Of a DNA stretch of 21,286 nt, positions 2,204 through 19,502 are shown in pieces. Under the pieces are notes generated by a model. That model was given only the letters and a program-made list of their open reading frames with translations, did not search any database and was not told the DNA's origin. Position numbers and translations under genes: made by a program. How positions within the stretch are numbered: position 1 is the stretch's first letter; each line of letters begins with the position of its first letter. Origin of the DNA: a virus; the IMG/VR virus record IMGVR_UViG_3300046514_000260, positions 1 to 21,286 of that record; one strand, given 5' to 3'.

Positions 2204-2917
2204 TCAGCTCTTCAGTATGTCGTCGAGGGCTTCAGCCTCATCCGCGTTGCTGCTGTCCCGAACGTCCGCCAGCCGATCCTCGGGGGAGGGCATGCCGACT
2301 GGAAACCTCGAGCCCACGCTCGCTTGCTTGGCCTCCGTTGCCTCTCGCGCCAGGCTCGCGTTCGCTTCCATCAGGGCCTTAATTTGCTGTCCCTGCGCCT
2401 CAACTGTCTGCCGCAGGGTGTCCAACTGCGCCACGAGGGGTCCCTGGGCCTGGTTCGCCGAAATCCAGTCAATTGCGAGCTGCTTCAACCGCCTGGCCCC
2501 CATCCCAATCTTGCCCATCCACTCCTCGTTCGCCTCCGCCAGATCTTCGATGCTCCGTACCCCCGCAAACAGCAGGATCTTGCACTCCGCGGGACTGATC
2601 GCCGGCCAGTTCTTCACCGGCGTCCCCATCACAGGATCCGCGTTCGTCTCTTTCCAGATCTTGTACATCTCCTCGAAGCGGGGAATCCAGCCTGGCGGGT
2701 ACATTCCGTCCGCGGCTGCCCGCTTGATCTGGGGAATCCATTCCTTCCAGATCTTCTCCGTCGTGTCCTTGCTTCCTTGCGCCGTTATGAGCGCAAAGTC
2801 CGTGTCCTCGTACCGCAGTTCCCCGGTTTCCGTCCTCTTTTCCACCGGCCGCTGCTCAAAGCGAATAAACGGAATCCGTGGAGCCTGAATTCCGATAAAC
2901 GGTTGCACTTGTTCCAT
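2204..2917 (-). CDS. Conserved phage structural/morphogenesis protein
   Basis: A 237-residue soluble protein. Residues near 40-60 read ITAQGSKDTTEKIW, followed by a Trp/Pro-rich stretch (PPGWIPRFEEMYKIWKE), then GTPVKNWPAISPAECKIL and VRSIEDLAEANEEWMGKIGMGARRLK. The last part resembles a helix-hairpin-helix-like element. Similar proteins (GTPIKxWPxLSPAQ ... RTVEDLA ... IGMGAxxLK) occur after the capsid genes of many podoviruses and have no assigned function I can name. The C-terminal third (from about residue 150) is a predicted coiled coil followed by an acidic tail. The start has AGGAG six bases upstream, and it immediately follows a hairpin terminator after the PEP-CTERM gene. It could be a minor capsid, chaperone or scaffold partner; I cannot separate these. 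Confidence 0.75.
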   Translation of the reverse strand: MEQVQPFIGIQAPRIPFIRFEQRPVEKRTETGELRYEDTDFALITAQGSKDTTEKIWKEWIPQIKRAAADGMYPPGWIPRFEEMYKIWKETNADPVMGTPVKNWPAISPAECKILLFAGVRSIEDLAEANEEWMGKIGMGARRLKQLAIDWISANQAQGPLVAQLDTLRQTVEAQGQQIKALMEANASLAREATEAKQASVGSRFPVGMPSPEDRLADVRDSSNADEAEALDDILKS

Positions 2918-2928
2918 GCCCTGCTCCT

Positions 2929-2968
2929 AAAAAGGTCCCCGAGGGGGAGGGTAAGAGCCCCTCGGGGA
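2929..2968 (-). terminator. Rho-independent-type terminator after the PEP-CTERM gene
   Basis: Perfect 11-bp inverted repeat, arms TCCCCGAGGGG (2936-2946) and CCCCTCGGGGA (2958-2968), with an 11-nt loop. Read leftward it is followed by CC and then TTTTT. It begins about 5 nt after the PEP-CTERM stop codon and ends 11 nt before the start codon of the next virion gene, leaving no room for a new promoter. It may therefore be leaky or overcome by antitermination. Confidence 0.8.
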
Positions 2969-2973
2969 GAATA

Positions 2974-3813
2974 TCAACTACGCTTGCGCCGAATCAAGCC
3001 AAAGCCAATCAGGCCAGAACCAAGCAGTGCTAGCGAACCTGGCTCGGGAACGGCTCGCGGGCCTGCACCGGGCAGAAATGCCCACTCCTCGAACCCATCC
3101 TGCGCCAGTGCCCCGGCGAAGTCCGCACCGCCATACTGCACGGCGAACACGATGCGGCTGTTCGGGTCGAGACTGCTGAACAGGCTAGTCGGAATCAATA
3201 ACGAGAGGTCGTAGCCGAGGCCACTGCCCGCGAACAGGCTGTAGTCCAGGATCAAGCTGTTGGTGATCCCCAACCTGTAGACGATGTCCAGATTCGGAAA
3301 CACATCGACGTCCGCCAGCGACGTGATGTTGGTGCTGTTCAGATCCACTGCCGCTCCCGGCGTTGCACCGGTCTGACCGAAGATCGCCAGCCTGTCAATT
3401 GACAGGAACCTCGCCGGATCGTTGTTCGGCTCGTTAATATCGAGGAAGAAATCGAAGTAATCCACTCCCCCGATCGTCACGAAGCCGAGTTGATCCAGAC
3501 TCATCGTCTCGGTGAAGGTATTTGCATTGTCCCGCTTGTCATCCAGCGGCAGCAGGTTCACACTCGCCTGGTCTGTATTGACCCCAAACTCCGTGCCCCC
3601 GTTCCCGCCAACCTGCGTGCCCAGGAACGGATTGATCTCCCCGGACCCGATGTTACTCAGGTTGCTCGGGTTCGTGTAAAGCGTCGTGCCCCCGCTCGTA
3701 TCCGTGCTGAACGTGCAGGTCGAATCCACCGTCCCGAGCACACACAAACTCGCTTGCGCACTGCCCGCGAGCGCTGCCATCGCCAAAGCCACCAGGTTTC
3801 GTCTAAGCTTCAT
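2974..3813 (-). CDS. PEP-CTERM sorting-domain secreted protein (moron-like)
   Basis: A 279-residue protein with a Sec signal peptide (MKLRRN, hydrophobic VALAMAALAG, cleavage after AQA at residue 21). The mature domain is beta-rich, Asp/Asn/Gly-rich and contains two early cysteines (24 and 33) and GFEEWAF near residue 240. The last 25 residues (255-279) are the full PEP-CTERM tripartite signal: VPEPGS, hydrophobic helix LALLGSGLIGFGLI, basic RRKRS. In known systems exosortase EpsH/XrtA-type enzymes recognise this signal and process exported proteins at the envelope, often linked to exopolysaccharide. The start has GGGGAA about five bases upstream. It is co-oriented with the virion genes but is not a virion-type protein. 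I infer a host-fitness or surface-altering moron; a virion role cannot be excluded. Confidence 0.9.
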   Translation of the reverse strand: MKLRRNLVALAMAALAGSAQASLCVLGTVDSTCTFSTDTSGGTTLYTNPSNLSNIGSGEINPFLGTQVGGNGGTEFGVNTDQASVNLLPLDDKRDNANTFTETMSLDQLGFVTIGGVDYFDFFLDINEPNNDPARFLSIDRLAIFGQTGATPGAAVDLNSTNITSLADVDVFPNLDIVYRLGITNSLILDYSLFAGSGLGYDLSLLIPTSLFSSLDPNSRIVFAVQYGGADFAGALAQDGFEEWAFLPGAGPRAVPEPGSLALLGSGLIGFGLIRRKRS

Positions 3814-3857: not shown

Positions 3858-3883
3858 CAGCCAGAGACTTACCGCCTACGTCG
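3856..3883 (-). repeat. Intergenic repeat element, copy B
   Basis: Read on the minus strand it begins CGACGTAGGCGGTAAGT and matches 24 of 28 bases of copy A at 4226-4253. Both copies are followed by a GGCGGCGCC or AGCGGCGCC box. Copy B includes the TAG stop codon of the gp49-family gene and runs into the PEP-CTERM leader hairpin. Confidence 0.75.
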
Positions 3884-4172
3884 GAGAGTTACGCTTCTCA
3901 GCCAGCAAATACCCCTCCAGCTGCCACATCTTCGAGAAGGCGTCTCGATACGCCAGCTGCTGCCCGATCTCCATGTTAAAGTTCCGTGGATCGACGCAGG
4001 CTGACTCACCCCTGACGCTAAACCCGTTCTTCAGCAGCAAGTTACAAATCGTCACAGTGCTATCCGGCAGCACCATGTAACTTACTCTCTCCACCTTCGC
4101 CTCGATTCCCTCCTTAGTCACCTTCGGATAAGACCTCTCGGCAATCGCTTTGTCCAGCTCTCTATCATTCAT
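3876..4172 (-). CDS. N4 gp49/Sf6 gene 66 family protein
   Basis: A 98-residue protein matching the small phage family named after N4 gp49 and Sf6 gene 66. Diagnostic segments are the N-terminal KVTKEGIEAKVERVSYMVL, the central LLLKNGFSVRGESACVDP, then NFNMEIGQQLAY and the C-terminal MWQLEGYLLAEK. The family's biochemical function is not established. It is usually an accessory early or moron-type protein, so a place between the decoration and PEP-CTERM genes is a little unusual. The start has AAGGAG with eight bases of spacing. Its 3' end runs into one copy of a repeated intergenic element; the other copy follows the decoration gene. I infer that it arrived together with the PEP-CTERM gene. 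Confidence 0.88.
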   Translation of the reverse strand: MNDRELDKAIAERSYPKVTKEGIEAKVERVSYMVLPDSTVTICNLLLKNGFSVRGESACVDPRNFNMEIGQQLAYRDAFSKMWQLEGYLLAEKRNSPT

Positions 4173-4200: not shown

Positions 4201-4237
4201 CTTTCGGGCGCCGCCCCTTGGCCCTCACAGCCCGAAA
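4201..4237. promoter_or_regulatory. Hairpin between decoration and gp49-family genes
   Basis: Arms TTTCGGGC (4202-4209) and GCCCGAAA (4230-4237) pair perfectly over 8 bp around a 20-nt GC-rich loop. It is in the same position relative to copy A of the intergenic repeat as the hairpin in the PEP-CTERM leader is to copy B, although the stems differ in sequence. There is no U-tract in the leftward direction. Confidence 0.5.
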
Positions 4238-4253
4238 CTTACCGCCTGCGTCG
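4226..4253 (-). repeat. Intergenic repeat element, copy A
   Basis: Lies four bases after the decoration-gene stop. On the minus strand it begins CGACGCAGGCGGTAAGT. It matches copy B (3856-3883) at 24 of 28 positions, in the same orientation, and each copy sits at the 3' end of a gene. Confidence 0.75.
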
Positions 4254-4257
4254 AAGG

Positions 4258-4959
4258 CTAGGTAATAGCCCCTTGCGTGAGCGGATTCTGAATCATCAGC
4301 ATGTTGTACCCAGTCCAGGTAAACGTCACCGTGACCGTGCCACTGGCTGTTGAGTTCGCGCTCACTGCGATGCGCGTCCCGCCAGGATCCAGCGTAACAA
4401 CCGTTCCCGCTGCCACCCCCGTGCCGCTCACCGCCAGGCCCTTGAACAGCCCATCCACGTTACTCACGTCGATGAACTTGGTCCCGTTGTAAGTCGTACC
4501 CGTCTTCGTGAGCGTGAACGTCGCCGGCTGCAGCACGCGCACGCCGAGCAGTTGCTTGCCCGCTGCGTTCGTGGTCGCCCGGCCTGCCGTCGTGCCGATC
4601 CCGATTGCAGCGCCCGCGGCCACGCCGGTGTCCACGCGCACTGGGCAGATCCCCTCGAACTGGAACCAGCCCCACACGTTGACCGCCGACATAACTTGGC
4701 GGACGACATAGAAGCTCGTCCCCAGGTTCGCCGTCGTCGCGAGCACTGCCGTCAGAAACGTTTGGTCCACAACTGTGACCAGCACGCCGGGGTCGTATGC
4801 TGCCCCAGCCTGCAGGTACACGAACCGCCCGAACCCAAAGTACGGATCTACTGCGTCGATCACCGTCCCCGCCTGAAACTTCTGCGTGGTGTCGGGCACC
4901 ATGATATCTGTGACCGGCCCCATTCCTGCAAGGGGATGAACTGGTGCGTATCCAGGCAT
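4258..4959 (-). CDS. Putative capsid decoration/head protein
   Basis: A 233-residue protein directly downstream of the major capsid gene. The first 125 residues (PVTDIMVPDTTQKFQAGTVI, DPYFGFGRFVYLQAG, then WGWFQFEG and CPVRVDTGVAAG) follow a pattern I know from podoviral head proteins: a beta-tulip-like fold with 'GxFxYLxG' and 'YGWYQxxG' boxes, commonly annotated as decoration or cement proteins. Residues about 165-220 look like an inserted beta module (VSGTGVAAGTVV, then ASGTVTVTFT), before the chain resumes at GYNMLMIQNP. The start has AAGGAGC with good spacing. Its role on the capsid surface is inferred from position and family pattern; a head-fibre role is possible. Confidence 0.72.
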   Translation of the reverse strand: MPGYAPVHPLAGMGPVTDIMVPDTTQKFQAGTVIDAVDPYFGFGRFVYLQAGAAYDPGVLVTVVDQTFLTAVLATTANLGTSFYVVRQVMSAVNVWGWFQFEGICPVRVDTGVAAGAAIGIGTTAGRATTNAAGKQLLGVRVLQPATFTLTKTGTTYNGTKFIDVSNVDGLFKGLAVSGTGVAAGTVVTLDPGGTRIAVSANSTASGTVTVTFTWTGYNMLMIQNPLTQGAIT

Positions 4960-13994: not shown

Positions 13995-14279
13995 ATGAAT
14001 CTTTACATTCACACAGCGCATCATGCCAGCTGGCAGGCCAGCAAATCCGAAGTGAGAGCATTGCTCGGGTGCGAACGGGACGCGCTGCCGGATGGAGGAA
14101 TGGACCCGCAGGACGTACAAGGGATCATCGTTTGGGTTGAGCCGAAGGACCGATTGAAGCGCACCAAGATCGGGCAACGATACTTTCACAGGGTGCTGGC
14201 GAAATGTCCTGCTTGCGGAGGGATCATGAGCGTCGGGCGCTTGCAACAACACAGCAAGATTCACCGGCGACCCGCGTAG
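13995..14279 (+). CDS. Small C2H2-type zinc-finger protein
   Basis: A 94-residue protein beginning MNLYIHTAHHASWQ, with GGAG seven bases upstream of the ATG. The C-terminal end holds a classic zinc-finger spacing, C-x2-C-x11-H-x3-H, starting CPACG and ending HSKIH, followed by a basic RRPA tail. The middle (DALPDGGMDPQDVQGIIVWVEP) is an uncharacterised helical/beta segment. A 106-codon upstream extension in the same frame looks like non-coding sequence and conflicts with the 13711 gene, so I dropped it. Possible roles are DNA or RNA binding; target unknown. The end of the gene overlaps one copy of the GGGTCGCCGG repeat. Confidence 0.75.
   Translation: MNLYIHTAHHASWQASKSEVRALLGCERDALPDGGMDPQDVQGIIVWVEPKDRLKRTKIGQRYFHRVLAKCPACGGIMSVGRLQQHSKIHRRPA
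14264..14276 (-). repeat. GGGTCGCCGG repeat, copy 4
   Basis: CCGGCGACCCGCG on the plus strand, identical to 13810-13822. It lies over the last codons of the zinc-finger gene. Confidence 0.6.
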
Positions 14280-14323
14280 GGAACCTTCCCAGGACCACGG
14301 CAAGTATCCAACCGGAGACAGCA

Positions 14324-14860
14324 TTGAAGTTTACAGAGATTGAACGCTGCAGGATCATTGCCCAGGATCGATTTGGGGTGATGCCAGATGTTACCATTGA
14401 CTGGGGCATTCGAGGGCTCACCGCCGGGCACTGTAAATACAAGGCCGGCGGGGCCAGCGAAATCTCGCTGAACGCGGACATTGCGTTGGCGGAGGGGGAA
14501 AAGTTCGCAGCCACAATCGCGCACGAGTACGCGCACGCGGTGGACTGGGCGCTGGACTTTCGCGAAGGGCATCGGCGGAAACAGGAGCATCATGGGTATC
14601 GCTGGCGCAGGATCATGGTAGCTTTCGGCCACCCGGCGACCCGTTGTCACAGCTATGAGAGCGCAGCGCCCGTTCGCATGGTGGAGAAGTTTCGCTATCG
14701 CTGCGCGTGCGGGCCGGTGCAGCTCGTAGGGCCAAAGGTTCACAGGAAGCTGCAACTCGGAGCGACGTACATTTGCAGGAAATGTAAACGGCGCCTCATC
14801 GCTGAAGCCACGATGACGGCAGAACAGCTATTGGCGAAGATCATGGGAGACGGAGAATGA
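14324..14860 (+). CDS. SprT-like zinc metallopeptidase
   Basis: A 178-residue protein using a TTG start (14324) with GGAGA about six bases upstream. The upstream part of this frame overlaps the zinc-finger gene and is not used. The catalytic motif HEYAH (residues 67-71, HExxH) is preceded by a conserved ISLNADIAL strand and followed by a second histidine in HHGYRWRRIM, as in SprT/Spartan proteases. A C-terminal zinc ribbon is made of CACG and CRKC pairs, matching the SprT zinc ribbon. Known members cleave DNA-protein crosslinks. The phage role, perhaps removing host proteins from DNA or processing replication blocks, is inference. The ATGA overlap links it to the next gene. Confidence 0.88.
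   Translation: MKFTEIERCRIIAQDRFGVMPDVTIDWGIRGLTAGHCKYKAGGASEISLNADIALAEGEKFAATIAHEYAHAVDWALDFREGHRRKQEHHGYRWRRIMVAFGHPATRCHSYESAAPVRMVEKFRYRCACGPVQLVGPKVHRKLQLGATYICRKCKRRLIAEATMTAEQLLAKIMGDGE
14633..14642 (-). repeat. GGGTCGCCGG repeat, copy 5
   Basis: CCGGCGACCC inside the SprT-like gene. Shorter match than the others. Confidence 0.5.
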
Positions 14861-15093
14861 ACAGACAGGAATGCGGGAAGTATATGCCCCGGGCGAAGCG
14901 GAAATGTCGCTTGCTCGCGGGTCACCGGGGATGCTGCCGGAACCAGTCGGTTTGGTACTGCGACACATGCAACAAACCCAGGACCGGGTTCCCGGCGGCC
15001 ACGGAGCCAGAGGCGGGCGTCGTGAGCTGTTTCATGTGCATGCTGCCAGATAACAAGTACTACGGGATAATCCCGGGAAGGAGAAAGCAATGA
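14857..15093 (+). CDS. Cys-rich small protein, paralogue of 18875-19108
   Basis: A 78-residue protein, started four bases inside the SprT-like gene (ATGA). Conserved boxes: CGKYMPRAKRKCRLLAGHRG, VWYCDTCNKP, GFPA and CFMCMLPDNKYYG. They match the protein at 18875-19108 nearly position by position (MPRA-x-x-KCRLLAGHRGC, VWYCDxC, CFMC-x-LP). Two CxxC pairs plus additional cysteines imply one or two zinc sites. I do not recognise a named family. Function unknown. The sister gene sits 4 kb away in the same strand block. Confidence 0.8.
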   Translation: MNRQECGKYMPRAKRKCRLLAGHRGCCRNQSVWYCDTCNKPRTGFPAATEPEAGVVSCFMCMLPDNKYYGIIPGRRKQ

Positions 15094-18323: not shown

Positions 18324-18875
18324 ATGCAACGCGAGCAGGATGAGATGGAGGAAGCCACCATCCTCGAAGAGGATGAGGTCGAGGCACTGGTTCCCGGCGA
18401 GCCACCCGAGGACGAGCCGAGCAAGGTCGAGGAGCTGAACTCGCTCCGGGACTTGCTCAATCAAGCCACCGCGCAATCCGCCGAGGAGAAGCGCCTCAAG
18501 GCAGCGCGCAAGCGCCTCGTCCAGATCCAGCGCCACAACCACCCAGATCAGCAACAGGAGCAAATGGATTTGCTGGTCGAGATTAACAACTTGGAGGAGA
18601 AGCGAGTATGGCACACGGTCGGGTGCGTGGCGCTGTTCTATAAGCAAGTGTGCGGCACATGCCAGACCACGCACGAGTTCTTCATGGGATGGTTTACTGT
18701 CCGCACACACGCCACCGACAAGCACCTGCGGGATCTGAAAGCCGGCGAGCCGAACGAGCCCCTGCCACGGTGGGCAGAAGTCATGGATCGCGGGATCGTG
18801 CCGGTCTGTGCGAAGTGCTGTGAACTGCGCATCGCAGCGGAAGTGGCGATGGGCTACTACCCAGGGGTCGAGTGA
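18324..18875 (+). CDS. Acidic phage protein with C-terminal CxxC pairs
   Basis: A 183-residue protein with an acidic, helical N-terminus (EEATILEEDEVEAL, PEDEPSKVEELNSLRDLL), then a basic coil, and a C-terminal metal-binding type module: CGTC near residue 112 and CAKC near 163. The middle contains FFMGWFTVRTHATDKHLRD. The start has GGAGACG upstream and the gene sits behind its own promoter. The next gene begins at its stop codon (TGATG), a coupled pair of Cys-containing proteins. No family recognised. Confidence 0.75.
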   Translation: MQREQDEMEEATILEEDEVEALVPGEPPEDEPSKVEELNSLRDLLNQATAQSAEEKRLKAARKRLVQIQRHNHPDQQQEQMDLLVEINNLEEKRVWHTVGCVALFYKQVCGTCQTTHEFFMGWFTVRTHATDKHLRDLKAGEPNEPLPRWAEVMDRGIVPVCAKCCELRIAAEVAMGYYPGVE

Positions 18876-19108
18876 TGGCGGAGAAGAAAGTATGCGGGCA
18901 TTTCATGCCCAGGGCGGATACGAAGTGCCGATTGCTCGCCGGGCACCGGGGCTGCCATCGCGCGCGGGTATGGTACTGTGATGGCTGTGGCAAGCCCCAG
19001 GCAGGGTTCCCGGCGGTGCGCAGTGAGGAGTACGGCGACCATTGCTTCATGTGCTGCCTGCCAGAGCGCAAGTACTGGGGCTTGATCCCGGCGAGGAAGC
19101 AGGCATGA
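18875..19108 (+). CDS. Cys-rich small protein, paralogue of 14857-15093
   Basis: A 77-residue protein; ATG at 18875 shares bases with the preceding TGA. Boxes MPRADTKCRLLAGHRGCHR, VWYCDGCGKP, GFPA and CFMCCLPERKYWG match the protein at 14857 at most conserved positions. Both proteins have two CxxC pairs plus extra cysteines. Duplicate copies of a small protein in one phage region suggest divergence of partner specificity; function unknown. Confidence 0.8.
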   Translation: MAEKKVCGHFMPRADTKCRLLAGHRGCHRARVWYCDGCGKPQAGFPAVRSEEYGDHCFMCCLPERKYWGLIPARKQA

Positions 19109-19281
19109 AAACCTATCTTGGAGACAGCGTATACGCGGACTTCCAGGATGGACAGATTATTCTCACAACCGAGAATGGACTGTCAACGGACCCCAGCAAC
19201 ACAATTATTTTGGAGCCGGAAGTATATGTAGCTCTAACTTGGTTTGTTGCTAAACTCACTCGAAAGGAGGGGACCGAATGA
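19105..19281 (+). CDS. Small conserved phage protein MKTYLGD-type (58 aa)
   Basis: A 58-residue protein. It starts MKTYLGDSVYADFQDGQIIL and continues TTENGL then LEPEVYVALTWF. This opening (MKTYLGDxVYxxF...TTENG...LEPEVYxAL) is a small conserved phage family that I recognise by sequence, without a known function. ATG overlaps the upstream stop; its TGA overlaps the next ATG. Confidence 0.8.
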   Translation: MKTYLGDSVYADFQDGQIILTTENGLSTDPSNTIILEPEVYVALTWFVAKLTRKEGTE

Positions 19282-19502
19282 AGTCAATCCTCGATCCAAG
19301 CTTCAAGTACGTCAGTAGCACGCACACTGACATTCGCAAGACCTTTAAACGACTGAGAAAGGAGATGGAAGATGGGAAGGAGAGCGAAGCTGGATCGGCC
19401 GGTGCATGTGCATCTGAAGCTCCCGGCTCCGTTGATCGGGGAGGTATCGTTACTTCTCTGGTCGGACGCGCACGGAAGAGTCCCGCTGGGCAAGTTGAGT
19501 GA
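19278..19502 (+). CDS. Small phage protein MKSILDPSFKY-type (74 aa)
   Basis: A 74-residue protein. The N-terminal 35 residues (MKSILDPSFKYVSSTHTDIR, then KTFKRLRKEMED) match a small phage family I recognise. The remainder is Gly/Ser/Ala-rich and low in structure. AAGGAGG is well placed. The C-terminal 131 nt overlap the next gene (19372) out of frame. Either the family core ends early and the tail is only tolerated, or a frame problem removed a stop. Function unknown. Confidence 0.65.
   Translation: MKSILDPSFKYVSSTHTDIRKTFKRLRKEMEDGKESEAGSAGACASEAPGSVDRGGIVTSLVGRARKSPAGQVE

Follow-up and report, generated by a model that had tools for sequence, protein, structure and literature searches.

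Exosortase/PEP-CTERM sorting was discovered through comparative genomics, and the roles of most of its substrates, as well as their exit from the cell, are still open. We investigated a stretch of viral DNA of 21,286 bases (hereafter the window), an IMG/VR phage fragment from an environmental metagenome, in which a gene with a complete PEP-CTERM signal lies among virion genes. The locus raises the question of whether this gene genuinely belongs to a phage and, if so, what its product would do for the virus and to the infected cell.

The PEP-CTERM gene and its protein

The gene at positions 2974-3813 of the minus strand starts with ATG and encodes a protein of 279 residues. From its open reading frame and translation, the PF07589 and TIGR02595 matches and 17 viral relatives, it was assigned to the phage clade of a family with a DGFEEWA signature. 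By inspection, residues 1-21 (3751-3813, minus strand) form a classical Sec signal peptide with a KLRR n-region, a hydrophobic core and AQA before the cleavage site, the N-terminus reading MKLRRNLVALAMAALAGSAQA up to this site and SLC after it. The sorting signal, residues 255-279 (2977-3051, minus strand), reads VPEPGSLALLGSGLIGFGLIRRKRS and consists of VPEP, a hydrophobic segment and the basic end RRKRS at the extreme C-terminus. Indeed, the protein matched the Pfam PEP-CTERM model PF07589 with 28.8 bits (E 1.2e-6; gathering score 20.7) and TIGR02595 with 28.4 bits (cut-off 16), and a record-level scan detected the motif only once in the 21,286-base record (2986-3054, E 1.7e-9) and in none of 14 control genomes. 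These results confirmed the sequence-only reading, which had described a 279-residue product with a Sec signal peptide and a complete PEP-CTERM tail, and whose observation was correct in every checkable part.

Between the two signals lies the putative exported body, residues 22-254 (3052-3750, minus strand), which contains the DGFEEWA motif and the cysteines Cys24 and Cys33. An AlphaFold model predicted a beta-sandwich (pLDDT 81.7, pTM 0.77). Foldseek searches of this protein against the PDB and BFVD gave only weak matches to beta-sandwiches and capsid jelly rolls, with a best PDB E value of 0.015, and the best match in a second-look fold comparison, a domain of an Akkermansia glycosidase, was within chance range (Z 5.9). 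A known function by fold was thus rejected, since the fold matches were weak and none of them named a function. Furthermore, no PHROGs family matched the protein, and no PADLOC model matched it, or four other phage PEP-CTERM proteins, at E 0.1. Among the curated PEP-CTERM subfamilies of NCBIfam, no full-length model exceeded its cut-off, the best being NF038125, which matched the tail only (37.6 vs a cut-off of 85). A lipoprotein reading was also rejected, because the protein has no lipobox: Cys24 follows an AXA-type site, and the residue in front of it is L, F, V or T among the phage members.

Genomic setting and insertion site

Annotation of the flanking minus-strand genes with Pfam and PHROG bore out the claim that the gene is placed among virion genes on the same strand, its neighbours being the terminase large subunit, the portal, the major head protein, a virion structural protein, an SU10-type adaptor and phrog_5107. 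Directly 3' of the gene is an intrinsic terminator (2929-2967, minus strand), read from the sequence and found in a shorter form by search, in which a 10-bp GC-rich inverted repeat (2937-2946/2958-2967) is followed by a T5 run; the hairpin has a folding energy of -25.2 kcal/mol (z -3.2). Upstream, a 29-nt leader repeat precedes the PEP-CTERM gene (3858-3886, minus strand; core CGACGTAGGCGGTAAGT), and its second copy (4228-4256, minus strand) precedes a gene similar to N4 gp49 and Sf6 gene 66 (3876-4172, minus strand; PF13876, 86 bits). These are the only two copies of the repeat (core CGACGYAGGCGGTAAGT) in the window, with a chance expectation of 0.04, and the leader may be a regulatory element that travels with the cassettes. 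A search for sigma-70 consensus promoters found none, so that we infer the timing of expression from gene position only.

We compared the site in about 75 sister phages, that is, IMG/VR relatives fetched by their major head protein. The insertion is bounded upstream by the virion structural protein gene (4258-4959, minus strand; phrog_29386) and downstream by a conserved phage gene recognised by a PHROG match and the sister comparison (2204-2917, minus strand; phrog_20268). In most of the sisters these two flanking genes adjoin, commonly about 90-150 bases apart, and a phage with 89% identity in the head protein (L043) likewise has a nearly empty site. The gp49-like gene, which forms the other half of the inserted two-gene cassette, is also missing at the site in the sisters. 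As many as 39 of the 40 sister records of at least 10 kb lack a PEP-CTERM motif, and the sole positive record (L051/L012) has its gene elsewhere in the genome. The window phage has thus gained two genes, the gp49-like and the PEP-CTERM gene, as a cargo insertion (moron). As in other morons, the gene is extra, its site is nearly empty in most sisters, and it has its own leader repeat and terminator. The sequence-only reading had proposed that consistent absence from related phages, together with a break in coverage at the gene, would mark an artefact; the absence was found in most sisters, but the assemblies show no break at the gene, which makes the gene a cargo insertion rather than an artefact.

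The gene thus resembles the accessory cargo that phages carry at fixed sites in its sporadic occurrence, its own signals and the reuse of the site, since some sisters fill it with other genes, some of them structural-looking. It differs from such cargo in that a host-directed sorting tail is kept through changes of the body, as described below. By eye, we also noted glycosyltransferase-, methyltransferase- and MAF/DUF115-like genes between the head-protein and phrog_20268 genes of L112, L113, L115 and L118, and it is possible that the sister genes at this site are surface-modifying cargo too.

Distribution and selection of the family

Two scans of IMG/VR yielded 17 viral contigs with the family, at 44-100% identity, and these comprise myo-, sipho- and podo-like backbones. 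All 16 relatives whose C-terminus is complete have the PEP-CTERM tail, a conservation that is not expected by chance, and in L016, whose contig breaks off within the tail, VPEP and the hydrophobic stretch can still be read. By inspection, all full-length relatives also have a signal peptide, which varies in sequence but keeps its pattern. Among the carriers, L005 encodes a baseplate-wedge-like protein and an integrase, L008 a head-tail adaptor/portal-like protein, and L011 lambda-type tail proteins. In other carriers the gene closes the replication module or precedes the terminase, suggesting that late expression may not be general. A phrog_1 integrase was detected in one of the 20 carrier or sister records scanned, all of them fragments, and most carriers may be lytic. 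In L005, which is unrelated to the window phage, a glycosyltransferase-like gene (L005:9013-9720) lies beside the PEP-CTERM gene. The 50,697 records of cultured phages gave no match to the window family or to the second family described below, nor to a generic PEP-CTERM peptide, the latter being a weak negative since this query is short and of low complexity.

The family also has bacterial relatives, at 25-39%, in Pseudomonadota, Thermodesulfobacteriota, Omnitrophota, Hydrogenedentota, Verrucomicrobiota and Planctomycetota. In the phylogenetic tree, the phage sequences fall on one side of a single branch with a support of 100/97. The Cys24/Cys33 pair was present in 14 of 14 phage sequences vs 0 of 18 bacterial ones, with neither cysteine in any bacterial member, and these two are the only cysteines in nearly all phage members. 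The pair would fit a disulphide outside the cytoplasm, as expected. The planctomycete members L037 and L038 are longer proteins with an LEALEDR leader and no PEP-CTERM tail behind the domain, suggesting that the domain may belong to proteins exported by more than one route. The dN/dS ratio was 0.06-0.22 in most pairs and 0.47 for L015/L017, being low for the body and usually for the tail, and the phage copies are thus mostly under purifying selection.

Since PEP-CTERM genes are normally chromosomal, the locus might represent a chimeric assembly or host DNA binned as viral. However, the same gene and its flanks, with phage genes on both sides, recur in contigs from other samples, at 100% in L002 (42.9 kb) and L003 and partly in L010 and L004. 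In the 5.8-kb contig of L004, the head-gene part does not differ from the window, but a tract at about 2500 to 3350 does. Divergence there peaks at 20-31 differences per 100 bases within the 3' half of the PEP-CTERM gene and declines into the neighbouring gene, the product of which remains identical; this is allelic recombination centred on the PEP-CTERM gene. Homologues in many other phage contigs, and the lack of a close bacterial copy among 84,980 species genomes by the scan used, likewise argue against foreign DNA. A chimera was thus rejected, because independent assemblies carry the same locus, and we consider such an artefact, including host DNA, to be extremely improbable. A genuine phage gene might still be a passenger taken from a host and useless to the virus, as its bacterial homologues in several phyla and its sporadic occurrence among the sisters could suggest. 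This is very unlikely in light of the single phage clade that circulates on unrelated backbones, the low dN/dS, the phage-only cysteine pair, and the retention of the sorting tail where the body has been replaced.

A wider class of phage PEP-CTERM genes

The window family is accompanied by others. In L006, L007, L008 and L011, a second, unrelated PEP-CTERM gene adjoins the first or lies near it. A generic PEP-CTERM DNA pattern run over IMG/VR, which yields no frequency estimate, gave at least nine further true PEP-CTERM genes among the 120 stretches listed, most of which are chance sites. A scan with the second PEP-CTERM family added more carriers, for a total of at least 13 further viral contigs. 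All 13 further records scored above the Pfam PEP-CTERM cut-off, and 10 of them hold two such genes. Many of these genes sit among DNA polymerase, tail fibre, tape measure or terminase genes; L196, with two-component-like neighbours, could be host DNA. The product of L231:2278-2886 belongs by score to the bacterial FxDxF PEP-CTERM family NF038126 (75.1 bits, cut-off 50), whereas the window protein is not, scoring 10.4 with its tail alone. We also observed a phage-like contig in which two PEP-CTERM genes and a gp49-like gene stand side by side, as in the window (L180:11961-13762).

The related phages L008 and L259 provided a clear case of body replacement. Nucleotide identity is 88% across the PEP-CTERM gene upstream and 83% across 1 kb downstream. 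Between these regions lies the second PEP-CTERM gene, whose body belongs to the window family in L008 but bears no relation to it in L259, where forcing an alignment gives 46%. From the first base encoding VPEP onwards the two phages match again, with 93% identity over the 75-nt tail vs 27% in the preceding 75 nt. The boundary of the swap thus lies exactly at VPEP, so that the tail and the terminator were kept, as expected if the label must stay while the exposed part may vary. Similarly, L007 and L258 share 81% over 80 nt of the tail, with differing bodies before it. A further site, which follows a helicase gene and two small genes and is itself followed by a tail fibre gene, is occupied by the window family in L014, L015 and L017, and by pairs from two other PEP-CTERM families in L231, L170 and L177. 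When 17 tails were compared, those with different bodies from the same phage group were more alike (0.556 identity) than those with the same body from different groups (0.490); one of 5000 label shuffles gave a difference as high, in a set that is small, hand-picked and non-independent.

Judging from these comparisons, the window gene is one member of a broader class of exchangeable PEP-CTERM cargo genes. It is close to an even prospect, if slightly short of one, that phages of exosortase-positive bacteria maintain a diverse and fast-exchanging PEP-CTERM arsenal, often in tandem. In such an arsenal, recombination would replace the bodies and the tail would remain as a fixed address label, and infected cells would receive a coat of exchangeable outer-surface proteins, perhaps as a means of competing with other phages.

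Presumed dependence on host exosortase and proposed mechanism

Exosortase substrates, with a Sec signal and a PEP-CTERM tail, need the enzyme to reach the cell exterior, and they tie exopolysaccharide to the cell (PMC12188702; also PMC11980579); their route across the outer membrane is not known (PMC12188702). Exosortase (PF09721) was absent from all 12 carrier phage records, and was present in 15 of the 17 bacterial genomes with homologues. The host's own enzyme should thus show the protein on the cell surface. The phage protein presumably depends on a host exosortase, as the sequence-only reading had supposed, and its further proposal, an action on the surface of the infected cell, is supported as probable by what is known of the pathway.

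We establish here the anatomy of the protein, its residence in phages, the conservation of both signals, purifying selection, mobility among unrelated phages, and body replacement in which the tail is retained. We judge it fairly probable that the gene is a phage cargo (moron), whose product, a secreted beta-sandwich protein, is placed on the surface of the infected cell via the host exosortase/PEP-CTERM pathway. The gene would be transcribed late, along with the head genes, and the product would be exported by the Sec system, followed by removal of the signal peptide. By the known pathway, the PEP-CTERM helix would then anchor the protein in the inner membrane until the host exosortase cuts the tail and transfers the protein to the outer surface or the exopolysaccharide on it. 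We conjecture that the body covers or changes the cell surface there, most likely so as to stop other phages or the phage's own progeny from adsorbing to the infected or lysed cell. Such a block on adsorption is the purpose we favour, as possible rather than probable, and we rank changes in polysaccharide or aggregation next. Superinfection exclusion, exopolysaccharide and aggregation, all suggested by the sequence-only reading, are thus candidate effects.

The candidate adsorption block is drawn from the analogy with exported exclusion proteins such as Llp of phage T5, a small periplasmic lipoprotein that acts on FhuA and blocks re-infection (PMC9586334). Like the T5 Llp and Cor exclusion lipoproteins, the window protein would be a phage-encoded, exported envelope protein of the infected cell, and the Llp gene also adjoins a structural gene. 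In contrast to them, the window protein lacks a lipobox, has a large beta-sandwich body and would need a host exosortase for its sorting; this putative analogy is functional only. With the PEP-CTERM/exosortase (EpsH) sorting of Gram-negative bacteria (PF07589/TIGR02595; PF09721), it shares the signal peptide and the PEP motif, hydrophobic stretch and basic end, as well as homologues of its body in exosortase-positive genomes. It differs from that system in being a phage-borne substrate, without an exosortase gene, and a mobile and swappable cargo.

The same surface cargo might serve another purpose by altering exopolysaccharide retention, flocculation or biofilm, and would thereby hold neighbours within reach of the progeny or shelter the infected cell. 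PEP-CTERM proteins are indeed required for floc formation and exopolysaccharide retention on Zoogloea cells (PMC9012009) and serve in polysaccharide adhesion in Nostoc (PMC12188702), and the FxDxF family member of L231 is a phage protein in a bacterial PEP-CTERM family. However, the window family lies outside the curated floc families, and a late gene of an apparently lytic phage would leave little time for building a matrix, so that we regard this purpose as rather unlikely. A virion component or decoration protein would accord with the location between head genes, with weak second-look fold matches to small capsid/neck proteins of Agrobacterium phages (Z 4.6 and 4.3), and with the structural-looking genes that some sisters place at the site. 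This role is nevertheless improbable: a Sec signal and a membrane-sorting tail occur together in all full-length relatives, nearly all sister records with the same head genes lack the gene, and in other carriers it adjoins replication genes. The suggested display on virions is unlikely because Sec export would remove the protein from the compartment of capsid assembly, and because sisters that share all the flanking head genes do without it.

Placement on the surface of the infected cell is thus the reading that we prefer. In the literature searched (open-licence papers), we found no report of phage-borne PEP-CTERM proteins, and phages go unmentioned in the founding PEP-CTERM/exosortase paper. 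Cargo genes of phages and PEP-CTERM sorting are both known already, but their combination, with bodies exchanged before a kept tail, appears to be new. This suggests that phages use a bacterial surface-sorting system that had not been tied to viruses in the literature searched, and exchanging exposed bodies before a constant sorting tail would represent a novel design of phage cargo. If phages do hijack exosortase, they would provide natural substrates that are small, strongly selected and open to individual testing of their replaceable bodies, and the pathway would be linked to phage-host conflict. The tail would also serve as a host clue for uncultured phages, since a contig with a PEP-CTERM-tailed protein probably infects an exosortase-positive bacterium.

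Other genes of the window

The plus-strand region of the window encodes two paralogous small cysteine-rich proteins, CGKYMPRAKRKCRLLAGHRGC... (14857-15093) and CGHFMPRADTKCRLLAGHRGC... (18872-19108), whose genes lie 4 kb apart and whose products probably bind zinc. An SprT-like zinc metalloprotease, with a score of 66.6 that is below the NCBIfam cut-off of 175, is encoded at 14204-14860. Finally, a small open reading frame at 19278-19502 (MKSILDPxFKYVxSTHT...) is common to the window phage and L018, where it is located just upstream of the PEP-CTERM gene (L018:9500-9664).
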